Shown here: one piece after another, positions 7,206 through 52,084 of the stretch
How positions within the stretch are numbered: the stretch's first letter is position 1
Layout: every line of letters starts with the position of its first letter
Virus record (IMG/VR): IMGVR_UViG_3300043427_003273
Location: 1 to 64,000 of that record
DNA: 64,000 nucleotides
Source of the DNA: a virus
Reading direction: 5' to 3' (one strand)
The notes under the pieces: model-generated
What the model was told of the DNA's origin: nothing
Seen by the model: the letters and a program-made list of their open reading frames with translations, nothing else
Database searches by the model: none
Made by a program: the position numbers and the translations under genes

Positions 7206-8423
7206 TCACTTGTCTGGTGTATGTTGCATCATTGTATCCATCATTTTGATACCACGATTTTCCTTTTTCTTGCTTTCTGGATCGGTTTTTCCAGCAGAAG
7301 AACCCATTAATTTTCCAGCCTTTGCCGTTACCTTATGTGTAGGAAATTCTTTATAGTCTTCAATGATACTATCTCTCCACTCTTCACTCATGTTTGCCAT
7401 AATAATTAAAGCATCTTCATTTGTATTCGCATACCCTTCAGCAACCAAATACTCAAGAATATAATCAAACAAGTCATCTCTATCTTCTACTTGTTCTGCA
7501 ATAATTTCTTCGGCAAGAAACTCAAAGTTCTCTGCAATTTCACCAACTTCAAAATCAGTTAATCCTTCCATAATCTCATATGCTTCTTCATAAGTCTCGG
7601 CCAGACCTTTATCAATGATATCTTCAAGCATCAATGCTGCAATAATTGCATATTCTTCCCCAAGTCTCTTAGAAAGTCTCTGATTATGCTGAGCAGATTT
7701 CATTGAATAATTACCCTTATTCAATGGTTTTCCAGATTTTGTAGATGATGCTGGAGGTAATGCATTTTTAATTGCTTCCTTCGCAGCAGACTTTATGCTC
7801 TTACCAACAACCTCTTTGCGTCCAGAACCTTCACCTCTATATGGCTTTGGTTCTCTCTTCGTCTCTACCTTTTGTGGTTCTGCCTTTTTAGGTTCAACCT
7901 TTGCAGCTGCTTTTGAAGCAAGTTCAGATCCCTTGCGAAGACCCTTAGCAAGTGCGGATCTTCCCTTATTGAAAAGTTCTTTTCCTTTTGAAAGAATTCC
8001 TTTTACTGCCTTTTTAGCAGCAGCCTTAACTGCTGGTGCCTTTTCTCTTACCTTTGAAACTACTGCTTTACCTGCTTTTTTAGCAGCATCTTTAATTTCT
8101 GGTGCCTTTTCTTTTGCCTTAGCAACTGCTGCTTTGCCAACTCTCTTTGCAGCAGATTTTACTCTATCCATCCTTTCTGCTCTTCTCTTAGCATCAGGAT
8201 CTTCAGTATCATGTCCGTATGTTACCTTTGCTTCCTCAATATATTCAACACACTCATCAATATCAAATGATTCTTCTGAAATTACTTCTTCTACAATTTC
8301 ATCAAGTTCATTGTCACTTAATTCATCAATAATTTCATAATTCTCTTTCACATGAAGAACTTCTTCTCTAAGATCTTCATCATATACTGCAGAGTATGCT
8401 TCAGTAAGTTTTTTATAATCCAT
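7206..8423 (-). CDS. histone H1-like Lys/Ala-rich virion or internal head protein, 405 aa
   Basis: The protein has an acidic N-terminal region, a strongly basic Lys/Ala/Pro centre (about residues 75-215) that looks like eukaryotic H1 tails, and an acidic helical C-terminus. The N-terminus MDYKKLTEAYS contains LTE, a match to the T4 prohead protease consensus (L/I-x-E), so it may be packaged and cleaved. The region EYLVAEGYANTNEDALIIM resembles EYFYAEGLNENGINILI in the 785-residue protein at 15-17 kb. It has its own late promoter and terminator, so it is a single-gene late unit. DNA binding inside the head is inferred from composition only. Confidence 0.7.
   Translation of the reverse strand: MDYKKLTEAYSAVYDEDLREEVLHVKENYEIIDELSDNELDEIVEEVISEESFDIDECVEYIEEAKVTYGHDTEDPDAKRRAERMDRVKSAAKRVGKAAVAKAKEKAPEIKDAAKKAGKAVVSKVREKAPAVKAAAKKAVKGILSKGKELFNKGRSALAKGLRKGSELASKAAAKVEPKKAEPQKVETKREPKPYRGEGSGRKEVVGKSIKSAAKEAIKNALPPASSTKSGKPLNKGNYSMKSAQHNQRLSKRLGEEYAIIAALMLEDIIDKGLAETYEEAYEIMEGLTDFEVGEIAENFEFLAEEIIAEQVEDRDDLFDYILEYLVAEGYANTNEDALIIMANMSEEWRDSIIEDYKEFPTHKVTAKAGKLMGSSAGKTDPESKKKENRGIKMMDTMMQHTPDK
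8010..8141 (-). repeat. two diverged 66-bp tandem repeats in the H1-like gene
   Basis: Two adjacent units (8010-8075 and 8076-8141) encode variants of a 22-residue sequence around the core EKAP..K.AAKKAGKA. They are clearly related at DNA level but diverged, and they make up part of the basic centre of the protein. Confidence 0.7.
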
Positions 8424-15132: not shown

Positions 15133-15257
15133 TTAATCGTTAAGAGGGATACCCGCATTTAACTGCTTTAACTTTGCTTGCAATTGGCTTTTTTGAATGG
15201 ATACAAGTTTTTTCTTAGTAGGATCTACTTTTTGAGGTTTAATTTGCGGAGGACTTA
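15133..15257 (-). other. -1 frame extension of the 785-aa virion protein
   Basis: The large gene ends at a TAA (15257-15255) just after a run of nine A (15269-15261 on the minus strand). Slipping back one base on A_AAA_AAA continues an open frame of 43 codons ending at TAA 15135-15133. The encoded tail is Lys/Gln/Leu-rich (TLSPPQIKPQKVD..., then KSQLQAKLKQLNAGIPLND) and fits the composition of the preceding protein. It could be a programmed frameshift or an indel/sequencing error in the A-run. Confidence 0.5.
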
Positions 15258-17612
15258 AAGTTTTTTTTTATCACTTTCAACTTCTTCATTTTTTGCCTTC
15301 CAAGCAGTAGCATAAGCAATAGATTTTTCCTTTTGCGTCAATCCACCTTTTTTAGCATATCCCTTTTTGATATGCTTAACCATTCTTTCAAACTTTGCAC
15401 CTGGAGGTGCTTTTTCTTCAAGATCAACTTCCTCTTTATATCCCTTTGCCTTTTCTACTCCCTTTGCAGGAACGCAATTTGGAACTTCACGACCACCTTT
15501 TTTCTTCATTCCAACTTGAGTGTATCCTTTCCAGCAGGGGTCTTCTTCAGCAAGAAACATTTCCTCCACCATAAAGTTCGATTCAAATACTAAGAAAATA
15601 GCATTTTCATCGAGTTCAACTTCTTCAAGTAATGCTTCCATCCACTCTTCAAATTCTTCCCTCTTATATGCCCTTGGACTTGATGCTGCACTTCCTCCTT
15701 TTGCCCATGCCTTATCGGTTTCTGCATTTCCAGACCATGGATCTCTTTCCGTTGTGTTTGGCTTTTTAATTGGAGTAGATGGTTTCTTTCTTTGTGGAGT
15801 ATAGGGTGAATCTCCCGACTTCCCACTTGCCATTGCAGCACGATGGGCATCCATTCTTTGCTTAGCAAGTTGCTGCCTTTCGGAAGGTTTGGGAGTAAGG
15901 AGTCCTCTTAAAGCACTTCCAATTCCTTCATTAAGATCTTCTGGAAGATAAGTATCAATTAAATACTCTTCAGAATATTCATTTACATCATAACCTTCAG
16001 AAATTAATTCATTAATCCAAAGATCATAATCTTCTCTCATTTTCTTAATAAATGTTCCTGCAGCACGACCCGCTGCCTGAGCATTTGTCTTTCCAGCAAC
16101 TTTAGCACCAAGACCTGCTCCTGCTGCTCCTGCTGCCGCAACTGCAGTTTTAGCAACTCCTTTTTTTAACTTTTGTCCTGCCTCACTTTTACCAAACTCC
16201 TGTCCAGCACGATGAACTGCCTTTGCAGCACCCACAGCAGCACCAGCAGCAGTTCCAGCAGCTCTTGCAACTCTTCTTTCATGCTCCTTCCCAACTTCCC
16301 TTGCAGTTTGCCATGACTGCTTTAAATGTCCAATAATACCCTTCTTAACTTCTTTCTTAGTTCCTTCGGAGGACTTATTGGATGCTGGTGCTTGTGATGA
16401 TTTTGCGTTTTCAATACTTTTTTCAGTTTTTGCTTTTTTCAATCCAGAAGAAACCTTTGCTTTCTCAGATTGACTCTTAAGTGCTGCAGTCATTCCAGAT
16501 GGTTTTTCGGAAGATGCAGATGCTTCTGCTTCTCTTCTTTTTTCCTTTTCACCACGAAGACGCTTAATTGCTGCAGTTTTTGCACCACCTTTTAATGATC
16601 CAACATCCTTTCCAGATTTTGTAGTTGGTTCAATACGTCCACTTCTTCTTGCTTCATCAAGATCAAGAATATAATCAACAAACTCATCTACACCAATATC
16701 TTCGATAAGAATATTGATTCCATTTTCATTCAAACCTTCAGCATAAAAATATTCTGTTGCAAAGTCAGCAACTTCTTCAATATAATTTTCACCAAGATCT
16801 ACAGATTCTACAAGTTCTGCACCAAGAACGTGTGCAATTTCTTCTGTCTTAATTTCTGGATTTACAGTTACTTTATTATTAACAGTTTTTTCCTTAATTT
16901 GCTTTTCTTTTTCCTTTATAGCATTCATTTTATCAGTAACTTCACGAATTTCTTCTCTCCATGAAGAGAATGATTCTTTTTTAGTTCCCCTTTTTGACAT
17001 TGCCTTTTTAACTGCATTGTCCTTGACTCCAGCATACTCATGACCATCTGGTTCTACAGTGCCATCCTTATCCTTATCACCTACAGTATTCTTTCCAGTT
17101 GCTGGACCATACTTCTTCTCATACTTTTCACCAGCACCATCATAAGGACTTCCGTGCTTAGTAACTGTCGTCACTATTCCTTTTTGCTGTAAACCATGTC
17201 TTTTTTTACGATCCTTTTCACTGCTTGGATCAAATTTTTTAACGTATGGTTTTTCTCCTGTTTTTCTACTTCTTGGATCAACTCTCAAATAATGCTTACC
17301 TGCTTCTGCTTCTTCCTTCACAGGTCCACCAGAAGCACCAAGACCCAATTTTTCTCTGACTGCTGCCTTCTCATTGGCAGGCATAGAAGTATGGGACATA
17401 TATTGAGAATATGCCTGATCTACACCAATTTCTTCTCTTCTTGCACGATATCTAATATCATAAACAGCCTGCCTAATTCTTTTAGCAGATTGATCTCCCA
17501 ATGCTGGTGCTCCACCTTTTGCTTCACCACCACCATCTTCTTTTTTTCCTAATTGAGGTTCCATCTCAGTGAGATAGGACTCATAAAGATCTTTTGCGAT
17601 ATGGGATAACAT
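15255..17612 (-). CDS. large Lys/Ala-rich packaged or virion protein, 785 aa
   Basis: A mosaic of acidic helical modules and basic low-complexity stretches. The N-terminus ends in YLTEMEPQ, with a T4 prohead protease-like L-x-E site. Acidic modules appear at about residues 255-320 and 530-570. The centre (about 430-525) is Ala/Gly/Lys-rich and H1-like. The C-terminus has PCWKGYTQVGMKKKGGREVP, a motif seen in cyanophage virion proteins. It has its own late promoter. It shares module style with the 405-aa protein at 7.2-8.4 kb. The stop lies at an A9 slippery run; a -1 shift would extend it by about 43 residues. Confidence 0.75.
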   Translation of the reverse strand: MLSHIAKDLYESYLTEMEPQLGKKEDGGGEAKGGAPALGDQSAKRIRQAVYDIRYRARREEIGVDQAYSQYMSHTSMPANEKAAVREKLGLGASGGPVKEEAEAGKHYLRVDPRSRKTGEKPYVKKFDPSSEKDRKKRHGLQQKGIVTTVTKHGSPYDGAGEKYEKKYGPATGKNTVGDKDKDGTVEPDGHEYAGVKDNAVKKAMSKRGTKKESFSSWREEIREVTDKMNAIKEKEKQIKEKTVNNKVTVNPEIKTEEIAHVLGAELVESVDLGENYIEEVADFATEYFYAEGLNENGINILIEDIGVDEFVDYILDLDEARRSGRIEPTTKSGKDVGSLKGGAKTAAIKRLRGEKEKRREAEASASSEKPSGMTAALKSQSEKAKVSSGLKKAKTEKSIENAKSSQAPASNKSSEGTKKEVKKGIIGHLKQSWQTAREVGKEHERRVARAAGTAAGAAVGAAKAVHRAGQEFGKSEAGQKLKKGVAKTAVAAAGAAGAGLGAKVAGKTNAQAAGRAAGTFIKKMREDYDLWINELISEGYDVNEYSEEYLIDTYLPEDLNEGIGSALRGLLTPKPSERQQLAKQRMDAHRAAMASGKSGDSPYTPQRKKPSTPIKKPNTTERDPWSGNAETDKAWAKGGSAASSPRAYKREEFEEWMEALLEEVELDENAIFLVFESNFMVEEMFLAEEDPCWKGYTQVGMKKKGGREVPNCVPAKGVEKAKGYKEEVDLEEKAPPGAKFERMVKHIKKGYAKKGGLTQKEKSIAYATAWKAKNEEVESDKKKL

Positions 17613-17659: not shown

Positions 17660-18997
17660 TTAATAAATTTCTCTCCATCTTATGGATACTCCAACGTTGG
17701 CAACGTCCGTTCCAAGATTTGTTACACGAACTGAAAAAATTTCAGAATCGGTAGAATCGTAATTTTGAGATAAGAAATTTTTCTTTGAAGAAGGTCCACT
17801 TGATACATCTACAGATGTTGCCGTTGGTTTTTGAGAATTTTGACTTTCTCCTGCAGCATATCCACCCATAAAATCTTCAAAATACGTCAAACTGATTCCA
17901 GTTGCACTTTCATTAAATTCAACAACAGATTCCGTATTCTCAGAAACCCAAGTGCCAGTTGAATTGATGCCAACGGAACTTCTCAATTTTACAACTTCAT
18001 ATTTTACATTAGACCCACTACTGAATACAGAAACATCTTCAAGTTTTACAGTTGCTCTATTTGGGTATCCTTTGAATGAATTTTTAAGTCGAATCGCAAT
18101 AATGGGAATTGCAGATCCAATTCCAACGTTTCGTAAGTTTGTTGTATGGGAAAATTCTCTACCTGCCTCTGTATATCCACCTTCACTCATTACAGTGGAA
18201 CAAATTTGAATGAAAGATCCACCAATACCTATTTGTGTTCCTACATTTCTGACCTCACATCTTACTGGGAGGTTAGGATTAGACATATAAACTGTTGGGA
18301 GGTGATTTGCATTATAAAATTCATGAGCAAGAATATTATAACCATCAATAGCAAATCCACAACGAACTCTACCTACACCCAACCACTCAAAGTCGGTCAT
18401 GAATAATTGAGTTTTGGTGATGTCTAAATTAAATCTTGATGGACCATTTCCGTCTAATGTATCCTTATTCCATTGAGATTGCGGAACTCTTCTCTCTGAT
18501 GCAATACCAGACACATTAGATCTAATTACAAAACTCAAAGTTCCATCTGGTGCTTGCTCAAAGAAAATTCCATCTCTATCATCAAAATATCCAGTTCTCT
18601 TATAAACGTTTTGCTGTACTGCACCAAAGTTAATAGTGGAATAAATTACCTGTGATTTTCCAGGCATGTAGTGATGATATCTCTTTGTCTGGTGAATGCA
18701 GTAACCATTAGTACTAATACCAGAATTTAAAATTGCTGCAGCTTGGTTGACATCAAAAATAACAGTTGCTCCAGTACCAACCTTAACATCTATAAAATCT
18801 GGGTCAATAGCATAAAGGTGCTTATAATCCCCAAGAGTATAGGGTTGCGATGTTCTTAATCTACCAAAAGAATCCGCAGAAAATCCTTGACCAAGATCTT
18901 CATAGATTTCTCCATACTTATTAGCCCTCATATAAACTTCAAAGAGGGATCTTTCTTGATTCAAATAATCTTGTTGGTTTTTATTCCAAATTCCCAT
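17660..18997 (-). CDS. virion structural protein, 445 aa
   Basis: A beta-rich protein with N-terminal helix, the segment FSADSFGRLRTSQPYTLGDYKH at residues about 38-59 (in two parts each under 20) and a C-terminal receptor- or jelly-roll-like region with many Gly, Ser and Asn. The FGRLRTS motif recurs in large-phage virion proteins. It lies in a late cluster, three bases after the 105-aa gene. It is likely a head or fibre component; the precise role is unknown. Confidence 0.7.
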   Translation of the reverse strand: MGIWNKNQQDYLNQERSLFEVYMRANKYGEIYEDLGQGFSADSFGRLRTSQPYTLGDYKHLYAIDPDFIDVKVGTGATVIFDVNQAAAILNSGISTNGYCIHQTKRYHHYMPGKSQVIYSTINFGAVQQNVYKRTGYFDDRDGIFFEQAPDGTLSFVIRSNVSGIASERRVPQSQWNKDTLDGNGPSRFNLDITKTQLFMTDFEWLGVGRVRCGFAIDGYNILAHEFYNANHLPTVYMSNPNLPVRCEVRNVGTQIGIGGSFIQICSTVMSEGGYTEAGREFSHTTNLRNVGIGSAIPIIAIRLKNSFKGYPNRATVKLEDVSVFSSGSNVKYEVVKLRSSVGINSTGTWVSENTESVVEFNESATGISLTYFEDFMGGYAAGESQNSQKPTATSVDVSSGPSSKKNFLSQNYDSTDSEIFSVRVTNLGTDVANVGVSIRWREIY

Positions 18998-19000
18998 AAC

Positions 19001-19318
19001 TTATAACCACTCCAATTTCCCTGGATGATATCTCTTGGTACTTGAAATGTTTACGTCTGTTTTTTGAGTTGCTGGATAAATCTGATGGACAATTGCTCCA
19101 GGATATTCGGTCTGTAATCTTTCTGCCAAATCCAATTTAGATGGCATTCCATTTGACACCAATTCCAATCTATAGATGCTACCTTCCCAAACAAAGTCAG
19201 CAACATACTCTTCACCGACAGATCTTGTTTCAGGTTCAGAACTGTTGATATAGAGATTTCCATTAAAATCTCCAGCAATATTTACAGCTTCAGAAATAAA
19301 TTGCTGATAGGATTTCAT
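19001..19318 (-). CDS. internal head protein candidate with capsid-targeting N-terminus, 105 aa
   Basis: The N-terminus MKSYQQFISEA is close to the T4 capsid-targeting sequence MKTYQEFIAEA that directs internal proteins into the prohead and is cut by gp21 after the I-x-E. The mature part would begin at about residue 11. The body is a small beta-rich domain without known family. It overlaps the 196-aa gene by four bases. The gp21 protease is encoded at 42.6-43.3 kb, so processing inside the head is plausible. Confidence 0.7.
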   Translation of the reverse strand: MKSYQQFISEAVNIAGDFNGNLYINSSEPETRSVGEEYVADFVWEGSIYRLELVSNGMPSKLDLAERLQTEYPGAIVHQIYPATQKTDVNISSTKRYHPGKLEWL

Positions 19319-19905
19319 TTGTTATCTGCCTTCTTTGCTTTGTACTTATTTATGAAATTTCTAATATTCTTTACTCCCATCAACCCCATAACATATTCTC
19401 TATGAGAATCAGTTCCAACCAATCTTTGATCAGCAGGAACACCAGAAACGTTAGTCCACTCGATGACATCATGAATCCATGGTTTGAACATTCGATCATC
19501 TTCAGTGACACAAATTAAATAATTTGTACCTCTACGAATAATTTTTCCAATCATCCCGTTTGATGTGCTTTCAATCCAGTCGCCTTCCAAAAATATTTCT
19601 TTTGCAATATATCTTTCTCTTATTTCTTTAATGTACTCTTCAGTTTTAAGTGGATTGTTTGGCTTATGATCAGAAGCAACATCATTAGGATTACGAATTC
19701 CTCTTACTTGCTTCGGATCCTTCTTCCCTACTTGCTGACCTTGATTATAAAACTTTAAATTTCCACCGTTTGTTTTTGCTACAAATTCTCCAGATTTTTT
19801 TCCATACCACCCACCATGTCCATCACCTACCAAATCCAATCTCTTTGCATGGAATTTTGCAAGTGAAAATTTTGCTTCTGTTTGAAAGTTGGAGAATTTT
19901 TTCAT
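19315..19905 (-). CDS. probable packaged protein, 196 aa
   Basis: The N-terminus MKKFSNFQTEAKFSLAKF has the same layout as the neighbouring capsid-targeting-like peptide (basic-aromatic start, x-x-E-A at residues 9-11), although Gln replaces the usual Ile or Leu. A later half (about 110-160) looks like a small beta-barrel (GDWIESTSNGMIGKIIRRGTN...). The ends are basic. It follows the 168-aa gene without a gap. Function after packaging is unknown. Confidence 0.6.
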   Translation of the reverse strand: MKKFSNFQTEAKFSLAKFHAKRLDLVGDGHGGWYGKKSGEFVAKTNGGNLKFYNQGQQVGKKDPKQVRGIRNPNDVASDHKPNNPLKTEEYIKEIRERYIAKEIFLEGDWIESTSNGMIGKIIRRGTNYLICVTEDDRMFKPWIHDVIEWTNVSGVPADQRLVGTDSHREYVMGLMGVKNIRNFINKYKAKKADNK

Positions 19906-20412
19906 TTATATTTTTAACAATAACTTAGTGTTTATTGACAAAACAATATCTAATTCATCTCTATCTATTTTATAGAAATTACTTAGGACTCTACCATCCT
20001 TTCCATTGTATTGTCGTATCATTCCAAGATGATGATTATAACCAAAAAATCTTCCTTTTTCTAATCTTGTGATTGTAGAAACAGGATGCATATCATAAAT
20101 TAAATTTGGTGTCTTTGCAACATATATGAAAGTAAATGTATCTCCAGGTTTTGGATACCCATACTTCCTATCATCCAAAATATCAATCAATTTATACATG
20201 TTATTTTGTGGTGTCTCCAAAAAAGAATTTTTTTGAAGTTCTATCAACCTTTCCATAATATTGGAAGGTTGAGGATTATTCTCTTCAGAATCTATTTCGC
20301 CAATAAATTCATTTATGCTTTTTTCAATATCCGTAGTTCTGGTATCACCTATATCATAAGAATCATCAGATTCATCAAAAATATCAAACCAAGGTTCTTG
20401 AAAGGTTGGCAT
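19906..20412 (-). CDS. hypothetical late protein, 168 aa
   Basis: An acidic N-terminal half (FDESDDSYDIGDT) and a C-terminal beta domain with YGYPKPGDTFTFIYVAKTP, YDMHPVSTI and FFGYNHHLG. This order (PGD..F.Y.AKTP, YD..P, FGxNxH) recurs in T4-like phage proteins of unknown role. It begins 9 bases after a strong hairpin and heads the block of packaged-protein genes down to 17.7 kb. Confidence 0.65.
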   Translation of the reverse strand: MPTFQEPWFDIFDESDDSYDIGDTRTTDIEKSINEFIGEIDSEENNPQPSNIMERLIELQKNSFLETPQNNMYKLIDILDDRKYGYPKPGDTFTFIYVAKTPNLIYDMHPVSTITRLEKGRFFGYNHHLGMIRQYNGKDGRVLSNFYKIDRDELDIVLSINTKLLLKI

Positions 20413-39827: not shown

Positions 39828-41270
39828 TCACATGAGGTTCTTAACTTGTACTCTTCTGTAGTAACGATTGCTGTTCGTTCTCATACGTCCCAGACCTTGA
39901 TCAGTACCCTCTGCGAATGGGTTTGCAACCATTCCATAACGGGTCTTAAATCCGATTTTTGGCTGGAAGGTATTCTCTCCAACTGCACGTACCATCTGCA
40001 GAGGTACGTATGGGCAATAGAAGAGTCCTGCGTCATAAGGTGAAGAACCCTTATAACCAACAACATAATACTGAGTTGCAGCATTATTTGCGGAATATGG
40101 GTCAATATAAACGCGGAATTTGCCCATCAGAACACCAGCAAAGGTGTTGCCAGTGTCATCAACGTTCAGGTTTGCGTTGAGTGCTGGGGTGTAGTCAAGT
40201 ACTCCTGCCATGGTCAGTGCCGAAGCAACGTCAGCAGAGCACATGATTACATTGCCCTTTCCTCTACGAGTTCTTTGTGCAATCTGGTTCGCATCTCTTT
40301 CGATTTGGAACAGAAGACCCTTGAACTTCTCAACTGACCAACGACCGTTGGAGTCAATATCAAGGTCAAATACACCTTGAGTTGAAACATTGAGAGTTGC
40401 GCCTTGCTCAGCAACCTTATAGATGGTTCTGATTACTTCACGGTTGATTTCAGCAAGAATCTCGGTTGAGAGAATGTTTGCTAATTCCGCTTCAGCATTC
40501 AGACCATGGATTGCCTTCAGGTCTTGTGCAAGCTCAAGGCTGTATTCTGCCTTCAGTGCTCTTGACTTGGCTTCAACAAGAATCTTCTCGATTGAGAATG
40601 CCATCTCGTTGAACTGATTTCCACCAGCAGCACCAAGTGCTTCTGATTCGTCAGTACGCATACCTTGTCCAACTTTGTAATCAAGTTGGCTTGCAGTTGC
40701 GGTTGGGTTCAGCAGACCTGGATTTGCTCCAGTTCCTTGTGCTGTAGTACCCATACCAACCACTGCACCTTCACCCTGAGTTCCAGTGACATCTGCTGCC
40801 CATGCATTGTCAGAGTTGAATTGATCTCCTTGTCCAGAGAATGCGGTATCTGGCTCGTTGAACAGTGCTTCTGTTCCCGACTGATCGTTGTAACGTGATC
40901 TCATTGCAAAGATCAGTCCAGTAGGGCCGTTCATTGGCTGAACACCAGCAAGATCATAGGCAACCAGATTAGGCATTGAACGTCTAATCAGTGAGATCAG
41001 AACTGGATCAAAACCTGCAACTGGGCCTGCTGGATTGGTATCTCCAGAGAAACCTGCACCGTATCCACCAGCACCAGTGTTAGTGTTTACAGTTGGGGTT
41101 TCGGTGAGAAGACCACCGTTTTGGAAAGCTGATTGCTCTCTTAAAAATTTTTCTTGATTTTCTAACAGGACTGCGGTTACTGCTCTTCTATGTGAATCCC
41201 TGATTGGATCGCATCCTTCGTGATTCAGAAGAGGTGCCCACTTTTCCTGCAGTGCTTCTGATTGAAACAT
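39828..41270 (-). CDS. 23: major capsid protein (T4 gp23), 480 aa
   Basis: Clear gp23: the N-terminal scaffold-like propeptide ends near residue 56 with LLTETP, a gp21 cleavage site (L-L-T-E), followed by the mature shell sequence with GPVAGFDPVLISLIRRSMPN and NGPTGLIFAMRSRY. It builds the hexamers of the head. Its codons use more G and C in third position than neighbouring genes, as expected for the most abundant late protein. No late promoter lies directly in front, so it probably reads from gene 22. Confidence 0.97.
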   Translation of the reverse strand: MFQSEALQEKWAPLLNHEGCDPIRDSHRRAVTAVLLENQEKFLREQSAFQNGGLLTETPTVNTNTGAGGYGAGFSGDTNPAGPVAGFDPVLISLIRRSMPNLVAYDLAGVQPMNGPTGLIFAMRSRYNDQSGTEALFNEPDTAFSGQGDQFNSDNAWAADVTGTQGEGAVVGMGTTAQGTGANPGLLNPTATASQLDYKVGQGMRTDESEALGAAGGNQFNEMAFSIEKILVEAKSRALKAEYSLELAQDLKAIHGLNAEAELANILSTEILAEINREVIRTIYKVAEQGATLNVSTQGVFDLDIDSNGRWSVEKFKGLLFQIERDANQIAQRTRRGKGNVIMCSADVASALTMAGVLDYTPALNANLNVDDTGNTFAGVLMGKFRVYIDPYSANNAATQYYVVGYKGSSPYDAGLFYCPYVPLQMVRAVGENTFQPKIGFKTRYGMVANPFAEGTDQGLGRMRTNSNRYYRRVQVKNLM

Positions 41271-41320: not shown

Positions 41321-42577
41321 TCAGTTTTTTGCAACTGATGAAAGAGTTCTCAGATATGCTTCCATTGTTTGTGAATGGAATTCGGGGGTAGAATCTACTC
41401 CTTCTGAGAGTGTTTCAGATGTTGCTTTTGGAGATGCCGTCTTTGAAGGGAAATATGATTCCTTCAATGTCTCCAGTTTTTCACGATATTGTGATTCACT
41501 TTCAAACTCAACACTCTCGGCAAGTGAAGCGAGCTTTTCTTTCTGAGAAAGTGCAAGACCCTCAGTTACATTGTCAAAGATTCCTCCAGCAACCGACTCT
41601 GCGAGACGCTTGTTAAGGGAAACATTCTTCTCAATTTGCTCGTTGAGTTTTGTCTCCATGTCATCAAGTTTTTCTACCATACTCTCAAGTACATCATATT
41701 TCTCTTCAGGGATTTCTACATAATGTTCTTCAAAAAGACCCTTCATTCCTTGAATAAAGGATTCTGTCATTTCTGTTCTAAGTCCTTGCTCAACTGCAAG
41801 GGCATTTTCTTCTAACCATTCCTGAGCAACATACTCAAGATATGCATCAAGTCTTTCTTCAAGAATAGACTTGATTTCGGTGACTTCTTCTACAAGTCTC
41901 TCTTCGTATTGAGATTCAAGAGATTCACGAACTTCCGAAACTTTTGAACGAAGAGCTGCTTCAAAAATAATTTTTGCTTTCTCTTGGAACTCTTCGGAGA
42001 GTTCTTCACCTTCAAGAAGAGCATTGACATCTTCTTCGATATCAAACTCTTCTTTCTTTACCTCATCCTCATCCTGATCATCTTCGTCATCTTCTTTCTT
42101 GGACTTCTTCTTAGACTCTTTTGAATCTTCTTTTTCGTCCTCTTTTGAATCCTCTTCTTCTTCCTTCTCTGCCTCAACAATTACTTCATCATATTCGTCT
42201 TCCAGATCCTCTTCTTCTTTAACTGGTTTTGCCATTTTCTTCATGGACTCACCAGCACTACGAGAAACTGTAGAACCTCCTGTAGTTGCATAAGCAGGGG
42301 CCTTTTTCATTCCTTCTGCTGCCTTTGATCCTTTATTTACTACATCCTTAACTTGCTTTAAAGGAGCAGCTGCATCTCCAAGCTTTGCAGAATCATCATC
42401 TGATCTATAATTTTCTGGTGTTGGTCCACCAAGATCTGCCCAACTTGTTGTTTGACCATCTGGAATTCCAGTAGTCAATTTATGCATTGGTTCAGCTGCT
42501 TTTGAACCAGCATTGACAGCAGTTTTGGATTGTGTAGTGCCTACTTCCATTTCCTGTAAATTTTTACCACGGGACAT
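41321..42577 (-). CDS. 22: prohead core scaffold protein (T4 gp22), 418 aa
   Basis: A long helical, highly acidic protein. About residues 115-180 form a Glu/Asp/Lys low-complexity stretch, then come coiled-coil-like helices (EERLVEEVTEIKSILEERLD and following) typical of gp22. The N-terminus includes L-Q-E-M, a possible protease site. It shapes the prohead and is degraded by gp21. It precedes gene 23 and follows gene 21, the standard order. The acidic extension makes it longer than T4 gp22 (269 aa). Confidence 0.88.
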   Translation of the reverse strand: MSRGKNLQEMEVGTTQSKTAVNAGSKAAEPMHKLTTGIPDGQTTSWADLGGPTPENYRSDDDSAKLGDAAAPLKQVKDVVNKGSKAAEGMKKAPAYATTGGSTVSRSAGESMKKMAKPVKEEEDLEDEYDEVIVEAEKEEEEDSKEDEKEDSKESKKKSKKEDDEDDQDEDEVKKEEFDIEEDVNALLEGEELSEEFQEKAKIIFEAALRSKVSEVRESLESQYEERLVEEVTEIKSILEERLDAYLEYVAQEWLEENALAVEQGLRTEMTESFIQGMKGLFEEHYVEIPEEKYDVLESMVEKLDDMETKLNEQIEKNVSLNKRLAESVAGGIFDNVTEGLALSQKEKLASLAESVEFESESQYREKLETLKESYFPSKTASPKATSETLSEGVDSTPEFHSQTMEAYLRTLSSVAKN

Positions 42578-42635: not shown

Positions 42636-43280
42636 TTACAACGAATTTAAAAACTCGTTGAAAAGATTAAGTTTATGCTCTTCCAGAGCACGTTGTTCTA
42701 CAAATCTTTCGACTCTATTTTTGAGAACATGTACTTTTTGTTCTAGAATTCCATTACTCCAGACCCACTCCACTCCTTCCATAATTCCATTTACAAAAGC
42801 ATCTGGGGCTGAAGGATCTGCAACAATATCTGCTGCAGTTGCTAACATAAAATCGTCATTAACGAGTTTTACGCCATTTTTTTCTATAAGAGAACCAACT
42901 CCCCTTGAAGAAACGCCAAGTTTTACACCTTCTCCAATTAAAGAAGATGCGATTTTTCCCATTGGAGTATCGAGGATTTTTGCTTTTCCTACAAAGTTAG
43001 TTCCATCTTCTTTCAAAGATGTAATCATGTGTGAAACTCTATCCAGGTTTACTGTTGGTCCATCTGGATGTCCAAGTTCTCCCAGAGCACGACCCTTTTG
43101 AATATAATTTTCATTGTATCTTTGTACTTCTCTTTGCAGAGTTTCCATTGGATACATACGACCATTACGATTTTTTATATTTGCTTGGAGAAAAGTCCCT
43201 TCAATATGAAGAGATTTTTTCCCACCTTTGCTTTCAGTAATAAAATTTACTGATTCTATTTCTTCTGTGATTAGTTTCAT
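42636..43280 (-). CDS. 21: prohead protease (T4 gp21), 214 aa
   Basis: Serine protease of the herpesvirus-assemblin-like fold: catalytic His in GELGHPD and Ser in LGVSSRGVG. The N-terminus has NFITES, an I-T-E self-cleavage site. It matures the head by cutting gp23, gp22 and internal proteins after (L/I)-x-E, which agrees with the targeting-like N-termini at 7-8, 15-17 and 19-20 kb. It follows the 91-aa gene by four bases. Confidence 0.95.
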   Translation of the reverse strand: MKLITEEIESVNFITESKGGKKSLHIEGTFLQANIKNRNGRMYPMETLQREVQRYNENYIQKGRALGELGHPDGPTVNLDRVSHMITSLKEDGTNFVGKAKILDTPMGKIASSLIGEGVKLGVSSRGVGSLIEKNGVKLVNDDFMLATAADIVADPSAPDAFVNGIMEGVEWVWSNGILEQKVHVLKNRVERFVEQRALEEHKLNLFNEFLNSL

Positions 43281-50680: not shown

Positions 50681-52084
50681 TCACCATTTTACTTTATCTG
50701 CCCAATAAGCTGCCGACATTTTTCCTTTTGCAATATTTTTTGCATGTCTTGATTTAAATCTTTCACGACGATTTGCATATTCTTCAGACTCTCCTTTTTT
50801 CTTTGGAGATCCTTTTACTCCAAGTTGACCAAATCGAATAAGTTTTTCTTTTCCATTTTCACATGCTTTTACCACATGAGATTTACCTTGCTCACCAGAC
50901 CCATGTGATTGAGACTTTGGTTTGTTGCAAGGCATTTCAGACTTTTTTGCTTCATCTATTTCAACCTCTTCACCAATTGACTTGTTATTTAAGAGATAAT
51001 TTTTTGATGGACTATTAGAAATTTGAATAAATGGTTCTCCAGGATTTAATTCTGCAATCTTATATGCAACTACTCTTGCATCTGGATATATTTTTTGAAC
51101 TTCAAAGGTTACTTCTGCTCTAGATGGAAGTTTTAATTGTGGGAAGAACATTTGAACATAATAATATTTTCCTCTCCATGAAAGAGTTACTGCAACAATA
51201 TTTCCAGATTGAGCTTTTATTCTTGTTGCTTCAGATACATTCTTTTTTGACTCAACTTTTTTCAATTTTGTGTAGTAATCAGGAACCTCATCTAAATGTT
51301 GAAGTGCGGTAATTTTTGCTGAAGTTTTATTTGATGTATGCTCTCCTTCAACTTTAATTCCCATTTCAAGTTGTTTTTTAATTGATTCTAAAGAAACCCC
51401 GTGTTTTTTGGCAATTTCTTCTGGTGATTTATATGACTGGACAGGACCCTTTGGATCCTTTTCTTCACTCATGGGACATGCTTTTTTGCCATGAACTGCA
51501 CATGATTCTCCTTTTTTTGTGTGACTACATTTTTCCTTTGATTTTGTCCCATCTACATTTTTTCCAATACCAACTTCAGTTGGTTTCTTTGACTGCCCTG
51601 GGACATCAAATCCTTTTGGAAGAGGCTTACATGCTTTATCAGTGTTGCACCAATACATTCCCTTCCCACACTTCTCTTCACCAAGAATTTTTTCCACCAA
51701 AGATACTTCTTCTTTTTTTACTGATGGTAATGATACAGATGCTGCTTTTTTCTTTTGAAGTTCTACTGCCTTTGGTCCAAGTTGTTTTGCTGCATCTGGA
51801 GTTAAAGCTCCAGCTCCAGAAGATTTTTTAATTGCAAAACTTGGATTTTTTGATTCATCCAAACCTTCATCACTTTGAAGATACTCTGCTACGGTATCAA
51901 TAAAATCTGCTGCTCTTGTAATCTTTGATTGAACCCAAGCTGGAAGTTGATGATCTTTTGATTTTATAACTTTACGAAGTTTTTCAATAGATCTTTCAAT
52001 TTGATCGAATTCAACATTTGCCATGTATCCTTCGTCATCTTTTCTTTTTCCAGAAGCAATTTCTTTATGATCTTCGTTTAACAT
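50681..52084 (-). CDS. packaged or virion Lys-rich protein, 467 aa
   Basis: A mosaic protein with helical N-terminus, a Cys-rich centre (CGKGMYWCNTDKACKPLPKG; several CxH/CxC groups between residues 135 and 210), a region with the order KYYYVQMFFPQLKLPSRAEV, and a Lys-rich C-terminus ending KMSAAYWADKVKW. The cysteine motif resembles a metal-binding knot and recurs in cyanophage virion proteins. It lies between packaging genes 16 and 17 with its own late promoter. Confidence 0.65.
   Translation of the reverse strand: MLNEDHKEIASGKRKDDEGYMANVEFDQIERSIEKLRKVIKSKDHQLPAWVQSKITRAADFIDTVAEYLQSDEGLDESKNPSFAIKKSSGAGALTPDAAKQLGPKAVELQKKKAASVSLPSVKKEEVSLVEKILGEEKCGKGMYWCNTDKACKPLPKGFDVPGQSKKPTEVGIGKNVDGTKSKEKCSHTKKGESCAVHGKKACPMSEEKDPKGPVQSYKSPEEIAKKHGVSLESIKKQLEMGIKVEGEHTSNKTSAKITALQHLDEVPDYYTKLKKVESKKNVSEATRIKAQSGNIVAVTLSWRGKYYYVQMFFPQLKLPSRAEVTFEVQKIYPDARVVAYKIAELNPGEPFIQISNSPSKNYLLNNKSIGEEVEIDEAKKSEMPCNKPKSQSHGSGEQGKSHVVKACENGKEKLIRFGQLGVKGSPKKKGESEEYANRRERFKSRHAKNIAKGKMSAAYWADKVKW

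Follow-up and report, generated by a model that had tools for sequence, protein, structure and literature searches.

The question raised by this locus is whether two small, adjoining genes of a cyanophage encode proteins that are led into the phage head by a peptide of the kind that targets the internal proteins of phage T4 and, if so, what this peptide carries. The window (the whole stretch of 64,000 nucleotides analyzed here) is part of an IMG/VR virus record of 100,901 bases, which represents a T4-like cyanophage. Its minus strand encodes the gp21 protease, gp22, gp23, the portal, sheath and terminase proteins, a late sigma factor and UvsY, and its nearest relatives are Kyanoviridae. The gene for a 105-aa protein (19001-19318, minus strand) and the gene for a 196-aa protein (19315-19905, minus strand) overlap by 4 bp, an arrangement with the same 4-base overlap throughout the window clade, whereas their counterparts in phage S-SCSM1 and in a 246-kb viral record (G008) lie about 40 kb apart. 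The two proteins start with MKSYQQFISEA and MKKFSNFQTEA, respectively, to be compared with MKTYQEFIAEA at the N-termini of T4 ipII and ipIII (read from NC_000866).

The larger protein is best understood from its ends. In tblastn searches of phage records, its first ~66 and last ~104 residues matched the two ends of a protein of about 400 aa annotated as cytidyltransferase or NMNAT, with a gap between; among the phage records listed, every hit was interrupted by the NMNAT insert. Against the NMNAT of S-SCSM1 (ORF91) the identity is 55% at each end, and ORF91 residues 67-305 have no counterpart in the 196-aa protein. The missing part contains the CTP_transf_like domain (PF01467, residues 99-239 of the relative at locus L120), and no PF01467 domain was found in the 196-aa protein or anywhere else in the 100,901-base record. 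What is retained is, first, an N-terminal beta domain with a GHGGWY...GEFVAKT motif (residues 25-52; 19750-19833, minus strand) that is common to the enzyme-bearing relatives; second, a linker (19642-19719, minus strand) at the place where these relatives, in the alignment with S-SCSM1 ORF91 and L120, have an NMNAT catalytic domain of ~190 residues; and third, a C-terminal SH3/KOW/Tudor-like barrel (residues 103-150; 19456-19599, minus strand) modeled at a pLDDT of ~90, whose weak Foldseek hits include the SH3-like barrels of the MscS middle domain, S4e and the PHF1 Tudor domain (E 3e-3 and above). In other words, what the gene encodes is an NMNAT virion protein that has lost the catalytic domain, a carrier without its cargo, and not, as a sequence-only reading of this locus had it, a protein whose domains belong to no recognized family. 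The Kyanoviridae NMNAT/cytidyltransferases (phrog_395; e.g., S-SCSM1 ORF91 and S-SZBM1_140) share with it the tag, the C-terminal SH3/KOW-like domain and, in related phages, the neighborhood, and the S-SCSM1 enzyme also shares the GHGGW domain. They differ from it in having a PF01467-type catalytic domain, which is missing in full from the window protein.

To evaluate the tag, we used a rule built from the functional positions in T4, where residues 4 and 7 matter for targeting and residues 8 and 10 for processing (PMC9026906): an aromatic residue at positions 4 and 7, I/L/M/V at position 8 and glutamate at position 10. Internal 11-mers of the S-SCSM1 proteome satisfy this rule at a frequency of 1.1e-4, so that 0.026 cases would be expected at the N-termini of its 242 ORFs, and two were observed. 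These two are ORF30 and ORF91, the relatives of the 105-aa and the 196-aa window proteins; the near-identity of MKSYQQFISEA to the T4 peptide, which the sequence-only reading had pointed out, hence exceeds chance. Over the T4 genome the rule returned only ipII, ipIII and 61.1. It is a strict rule, since T4 IPI keeps F4 and F7 and has T8, with its sole L/I-x-E site at residue 19. Within the window the strict rule is satisfied by the 105-aa protein only; the 196-aa protein has F4, F7 and E10, with Q8, and passes only if position 8 is left out. A scan of the rest of the record, performed in stretches, found no further tagged protein. The same reading had also assigned weaker L-x-E sites to two other window proteins, of 405 and 785 aa, and had combined all four into one possible set of packed proteins. 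However, [LI]xE occurs in the first 22 residues of 22% of the S-SCSM1 ORFs and 26% of the window ORFs; the LTE sites of the 405-aa and 785-aa proteins are thus at background frequency and carry no information, and we rejected them as targeting signals, together with the set of four.

Conservation within the two families is also informative. Among 59 distinct N-termini of the NMNAT/196-aa family, columns 4, 7 and 10 are the least variable within positions 3-19, followed by column 11, while columns 3, 5, 6, 9 and 12-19 vary. Position 8 is L/I/M/V in the other clades of this family vs. Q in the window clade. In the 105-aa family, the tag reads MK[ST][FY]xxF[IL]SE[SA] in 54 of 54 distinct sequences, with F7, S9 and E10 invariant; here, the residues behind the tag are conserved as well, and conservation alone does not set the tag apart from what follows. 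For the 105-aa protein we predict a capsid-targeting-like peptide, MKSYQQFISE (residues 1-10; 19289-19318, minus strand), with a gp21 cut after E10. The corresponding peptide of the 196-aa protein, MKKFSNFQTE (residues 1-10; 19876-19905, minus strand), has Q8 instead of L/I, which should impair the gp21 cut and makes processing doubtful; if the T4 rules hold, targeting with poor processing is to be predicted. The proposal of T4-type capsid-targeting N-termini is supported for both proteins, in the NMNAT/196-aa family by columns 4, 7 and 10 and by the enzyme-bearing relatives in virions (below), with Q8 leaving some doubt for the 196-aa protein.

The head genes that such a signal presupposes are encoded in the window. 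The gp21 prohead protease, presumably the processing enzyme, had been recognized from the letters alone and is confirmed at 42636-43280 (minus strand; phrog_207, E 2e-85), and the gp22 scaffold, presumably the docking partner in the prohead core, lies at 41321-42577 (minus strand; phrog_237, E 1e-103). Near the N-terminus of gp23, residues 55-57 are LTE (41100-41108, minus strand), a predicted gp21 site that corresponds in position to the one at residue 65 in T4, and hence the window gp21 plausibly has the usual L/I-x-E specificity. We consider it probable that the two proteins are best explained by a capsid-targeting sequence (CTS) that docks both to the scaffold core of the prohead, followed by a gp21 cut and retention in the head, with the 196-aa protein being an emptied NMNAT carrier. 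More specifically, we infer that gp21, after docking, would cut behind glutamate 10 and that what remains would be retained in the head, perhaps to reach the host by injection with the DNA. The layout of the 196-aa family would be CTS, GHGGW domain, NMNAT and SH3/KOW-like C-domain; in the window lineage NMNAT would have been lost once, with the tag, the N-domain and the C-domain kept under selection, and the 105-aa protein would be a second tagged protein.

The 105-aa protein is a member of the phrog_1742 family, which has no assigned function and with which it shares full-length homology and the tag. Its relatives number 353 in viral contigs and 139 in phage records, all of the latter from cyanophages, and the dN/dS of the gene (0.00-0.11) points to strong purifying selection. 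The model of this protein shows a small beta-beta-alpha-beta domain, the folded core of which is placed at residues 33-82 (19073-19222, minus strand). Two strands, one helix and a third strand are modeled confidently over residues 36-82 (AlphaFold2 pLDDT ~90 over residues 41-80). This core is not without a family either. It aligns with a domain of DUF6321-type virion proteins, namely S-SCSM1 ORF29 and a 467-aa window protein (hhalign, E 1e-5, probability 82%), and a Foldseek search of viral models returned, after an obvious homologue, DUF6321 proteins and S-SCSM1 ORF29. The DUF6321-type proteins (S-SCSM1 ORF29 and the product of 50681-52084 in the window) differ from the 105-aa protein in being large, multidomain and devoid of an N-terminal tag. 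Separately, the products of 50681-52084, 15255-17612 and 7206-8423 (minus strand) are large modular virion-type proteins that share short modules (FxxW/LxE repeats, DUF5661) with S-SCSM1 ORF29, ORF89 and ORF92.

Alternatively, the tag might bind the core without any delivery, the two proteins being prohead assembly components (like T4 gp67/gp68) that gp21 degrades. Several features of the 105-aa protein are in line with this scenario. Two published virion proteomes do not list its relatives S-SCSM1 ORF30 and S-SZBM1_191; the core domain, as described above, is also found in structural proteins; it contains a second conserved [LI]xE at residues 64-66; and its gene adjoins head/virion structural genes, with a 445-aa head/virion structural protein encoded directly downstream (17660-18997, minus strand; phrog_1645, head and packaging, E 3e-106), the S-SZBM1 counterpart of which (S-SZBM1_190) was detected in virions. 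Absence from a mass spectrometry list is no proof of absence from the virion; the S-SCSM1 list does include proteins of 61-93 aa. Since the tag is perfect but the relatives are not in the virion lists, it is a weak candidate for an internal protein of high abundance, the 105-aa protein fitting equally well as a low-copy head protein or as a prohead-core component removed at maturation. For the pair as a whole, however, we judge the assembly scenario unlikely, given that NMNAT relatives of the 196-aa protein have been found in mature virions by several studies and that a folded enzyme domain would be an odd part of a scaffold. Directly upstream of the 196-aa gene, a 168-aa protein (19906-20412, minus strand) has a match over residues 27-129 to phrog_429, 'DNA end protector' (E 8e-11), and may thus be a gp2-like head protein.

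Returning to the CTS-carrier model, the virion data come from enzyme-bearing relatives. Mass spectrometry reportedly detected NMNAT or a homologue in S-SCSM1 and S-CBWM1 virions (PMC9602691), and NMNAT-type proteins were reported in virions of S-SZBM1, with 2 peptides (PMC9146016, Table 1), and of S-CREM2, with 3 peptides (PMC10665884, Table 3). In S-SZBM1 the abundance was far below that of the portal (emPAI 0.26 vs. 2.83; PMC9146016). The tag itself is joined to these enzymes in various ways, and such natural variants serve as controls: in S-B68 (MKNFNSFLTEA) it is fused straight onto NMNAT, as is a one-residue-shorter version in S-SZBM1 (MRFRQFIIEA), and in S-RIM2 and P-SSM4 it is followed by an N-domain of a different kind. 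In MED4-213 and S-H9-1, NMNAT starts at the catalytic domain and has no tag, and NMNAT and C-domain are separate genes. It could be argued that the resemblance to the T4 peptide is coincidental or stems from a different role of an amphipathic helix at the N-terminus, with the proteins being cytoplasmic and the virion NMNAT a contaminant. Indeed, the authors of PMC9602691 and PMC10665884 left co-purification open, and the model of the 196-aa protein predicts a helix at residues 4-22. However, neither the column pattern at 4, 7 and 10 and the tag frequency, nor the lack of a tag where NMNAT stands alone, nor the repeated detection in independent virion preparations would be anticipated under this scenario, which we regard as improbable. 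In the two phages without a tag, the genes for NMNAT and the SH3/KOW-like C-domain adjoin each other (loci L179 in MED4-213 and L180 in S-H9-1), and the C-domain gene of S-H9-1 is labeled 'ribonucleotide reductase alpha subunit', probably a misannotation.

The carrier without the enzyme is not peculiar to the window. A scan of viral contigs recovered 80 loci of the NMNAT/196-aa family, about 30 of which match the 196-aa query nearly end to end in one stretch, with open frames of 192-205 aa. These cargo-less loci have no NMNAT motif and their frames are open, incomplete ones excepted; most of the other loci encode 381-432 aa with the NMNAT motif intact or altered. When the shared domains were placed in an unrooted tree, the 21 cargo-less sequences grouped into a single clade (support 98/87), which adjoins the enzyme-bearing sequences L118, L130, L120 and L123, and whose members are 57-96% identical to the window protein. 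The dN/dS of the 196-aa gene (0.05-0.23) indicates a working gene under strong purifying selection. The simpler reading of the unrooted tree is that the NMNAT domain was lost once in the window lineage; loss is the simpler direction because the enzyme-bearing forms also include other N-terminal arrangements (S-SZBM1, S-B68, S-RIM2, P-SSM4). One could view the gene instead as a decaying NMNAT remnant, in keeping with the missing catalytic domain and a tag that has drifted to Q at position 8; open frames across the clade, the low dN/dS and the single origin make this very improbable. Selection on the flanking domains, as the emptied carrier shows, does not depend on the enzyme. Compensation for the loss by a separate NMNAT gene was also considered and rejected, as no such gene was found in 18 records that encode the cargo-less form (among them ones of 246, 149, 121 and 107 kb) or in the record of the window; the NAMPT partner known from phage NAD-salvage pairs (PF04095) was likewise not found in 8 records.

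A subgroup of the enzyme-bearing loci (L133, L135, L139, L142, L149, L154, L160 and L166) has an altered nucleotide-binding motif (GKFNPPTKxH and similar vs. GRFNPPTxGH). The one member tested, L133, falls under the Pfam cut-off, and the NMNAT activity of this subgroup may therefore have changed.

As for function in the host, the suggestion that these are candidate anti-host effectors did not gain ground: neither protein has a match in Pfam or PADLOC, the 105-aa family has no PDB sequence match below E 1, its relatives are those absent from the two virion proteomes, and nothing in Pfam, PADLOC or PDB supported a counter-defence function for either protein. The match of the 105-aa profile to a pertussis-like toxin subunit in PDB (E 1.1) is due to chance. 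Similarly, an injected inhibitor of the host RNA polymerase, to which the best PDB fold match of the 105-aa protein (T7 Gp2, 4lk0_M; Foldseek probability 0.99, TM 0.71 of target) and the presence of YkzG among the fold matches might point, was set aside as very improbable, since the Gp2 match, at an E-value of 0.29, spans 50 residues of a small fold that is very common, cyanophage structural-protein domains match more strongly, and the relatives were not seen in virions.

Among the closest known parallels to the CTS-carrier model are T4 IPI/IPII/IPIII, with the same MKxYxxFIxEA-type peptide (aromatic residues at 4 and 7, an aliphatic one at 8, and E10) and with gp21 present in the window genome as well. 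The predicted mature 196-aa protein is basic like the T4 internal proteins (pI 9.6 and net charge +10, vs. 9.65 for IPIII and 9.0-9.65 for the T4 set) and about the size of IPIII. The differences are that the mature domains are unrelated, that the 196-aa protein has Q8, that packaging and cleavage are predictions here, and that the 105-aa protein is acidic in its predicted mature form (pI 4.85, net charge -5), with relatives not detected in virions. Over the tag region, tblastn aligned the 105-aa protein with two IPIII proteins, though not significantly (E 5 and 9). Related phages carry tags on further proteins, e.g., S-SZBM1_192 (MKTFKQYITEA with a DUF6321-like tail), a lysine-rich protein of record G011 (MKTFNQFISEA), and two proteins of phage C48C1 at locus L181 (MLSFKQFVSEV, pI 11.9, and MITFKKYLEEK). 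Neither the basic tagged protein of C48C1 nor S-SZBM1_192 has a match in the record of the window. In the 246-kb record, the tagged ORFs include both families and a few short ORFs that may have arisen by chance. Judged from these sequences, the system appears to be the Kyanoviridae equivalent of the internal proteins of T-even phages, with a constant tag and a changing cargo, and it is likely that a T4-type capsid-targeting signal carries NMNAT, the emptied NMNAT carrier and other cargo in this family.

These results bear on a question that has been left open. NMNAT-like enzymes have been reported in cyanophage virions, and two papers did not decide between cargo and contaminant; a T4-type tag on these enzymes, missing when the enzyme has a gene to itself, would provide a loading mechanism and makes the question testable. 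We found no publication in the literature searched in which a T4-type tag is joined to a cyanophage cargo. More tentatively, and with somewhat less than even confidence, we hypothesize that Kyanoviridae use this tag to bring a variable set of proteins into the head, chiefly NMNAT, which may be active from the first minutes of infection, and that the domains of the emptied lineage themselves serve some function in the head or the host. If true, NAD supplied by an enzyme that is injected could be relevant to host defences that deplete NAD, and the tag could serve as a tool to load proteins into cyanophage heads.

Finally, a few minor observations concern tag-like sequences elsewhere. T4 gp61.1 (54 aa; NC_000866, 18966-19130, minus strand; locus L171), which passes the tag rule, starts with MKTFKEFIKED, and S-SZBM1_194 contains an internal ITYREFIAEGN that is close to the T4 tag. 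The MLSFKQFVSEV protein of C48C1 (2079-2450 at L181) is a very basic protein of 123 aa encoded beside an NMNAT gene, and represents a candidate internal head protein.
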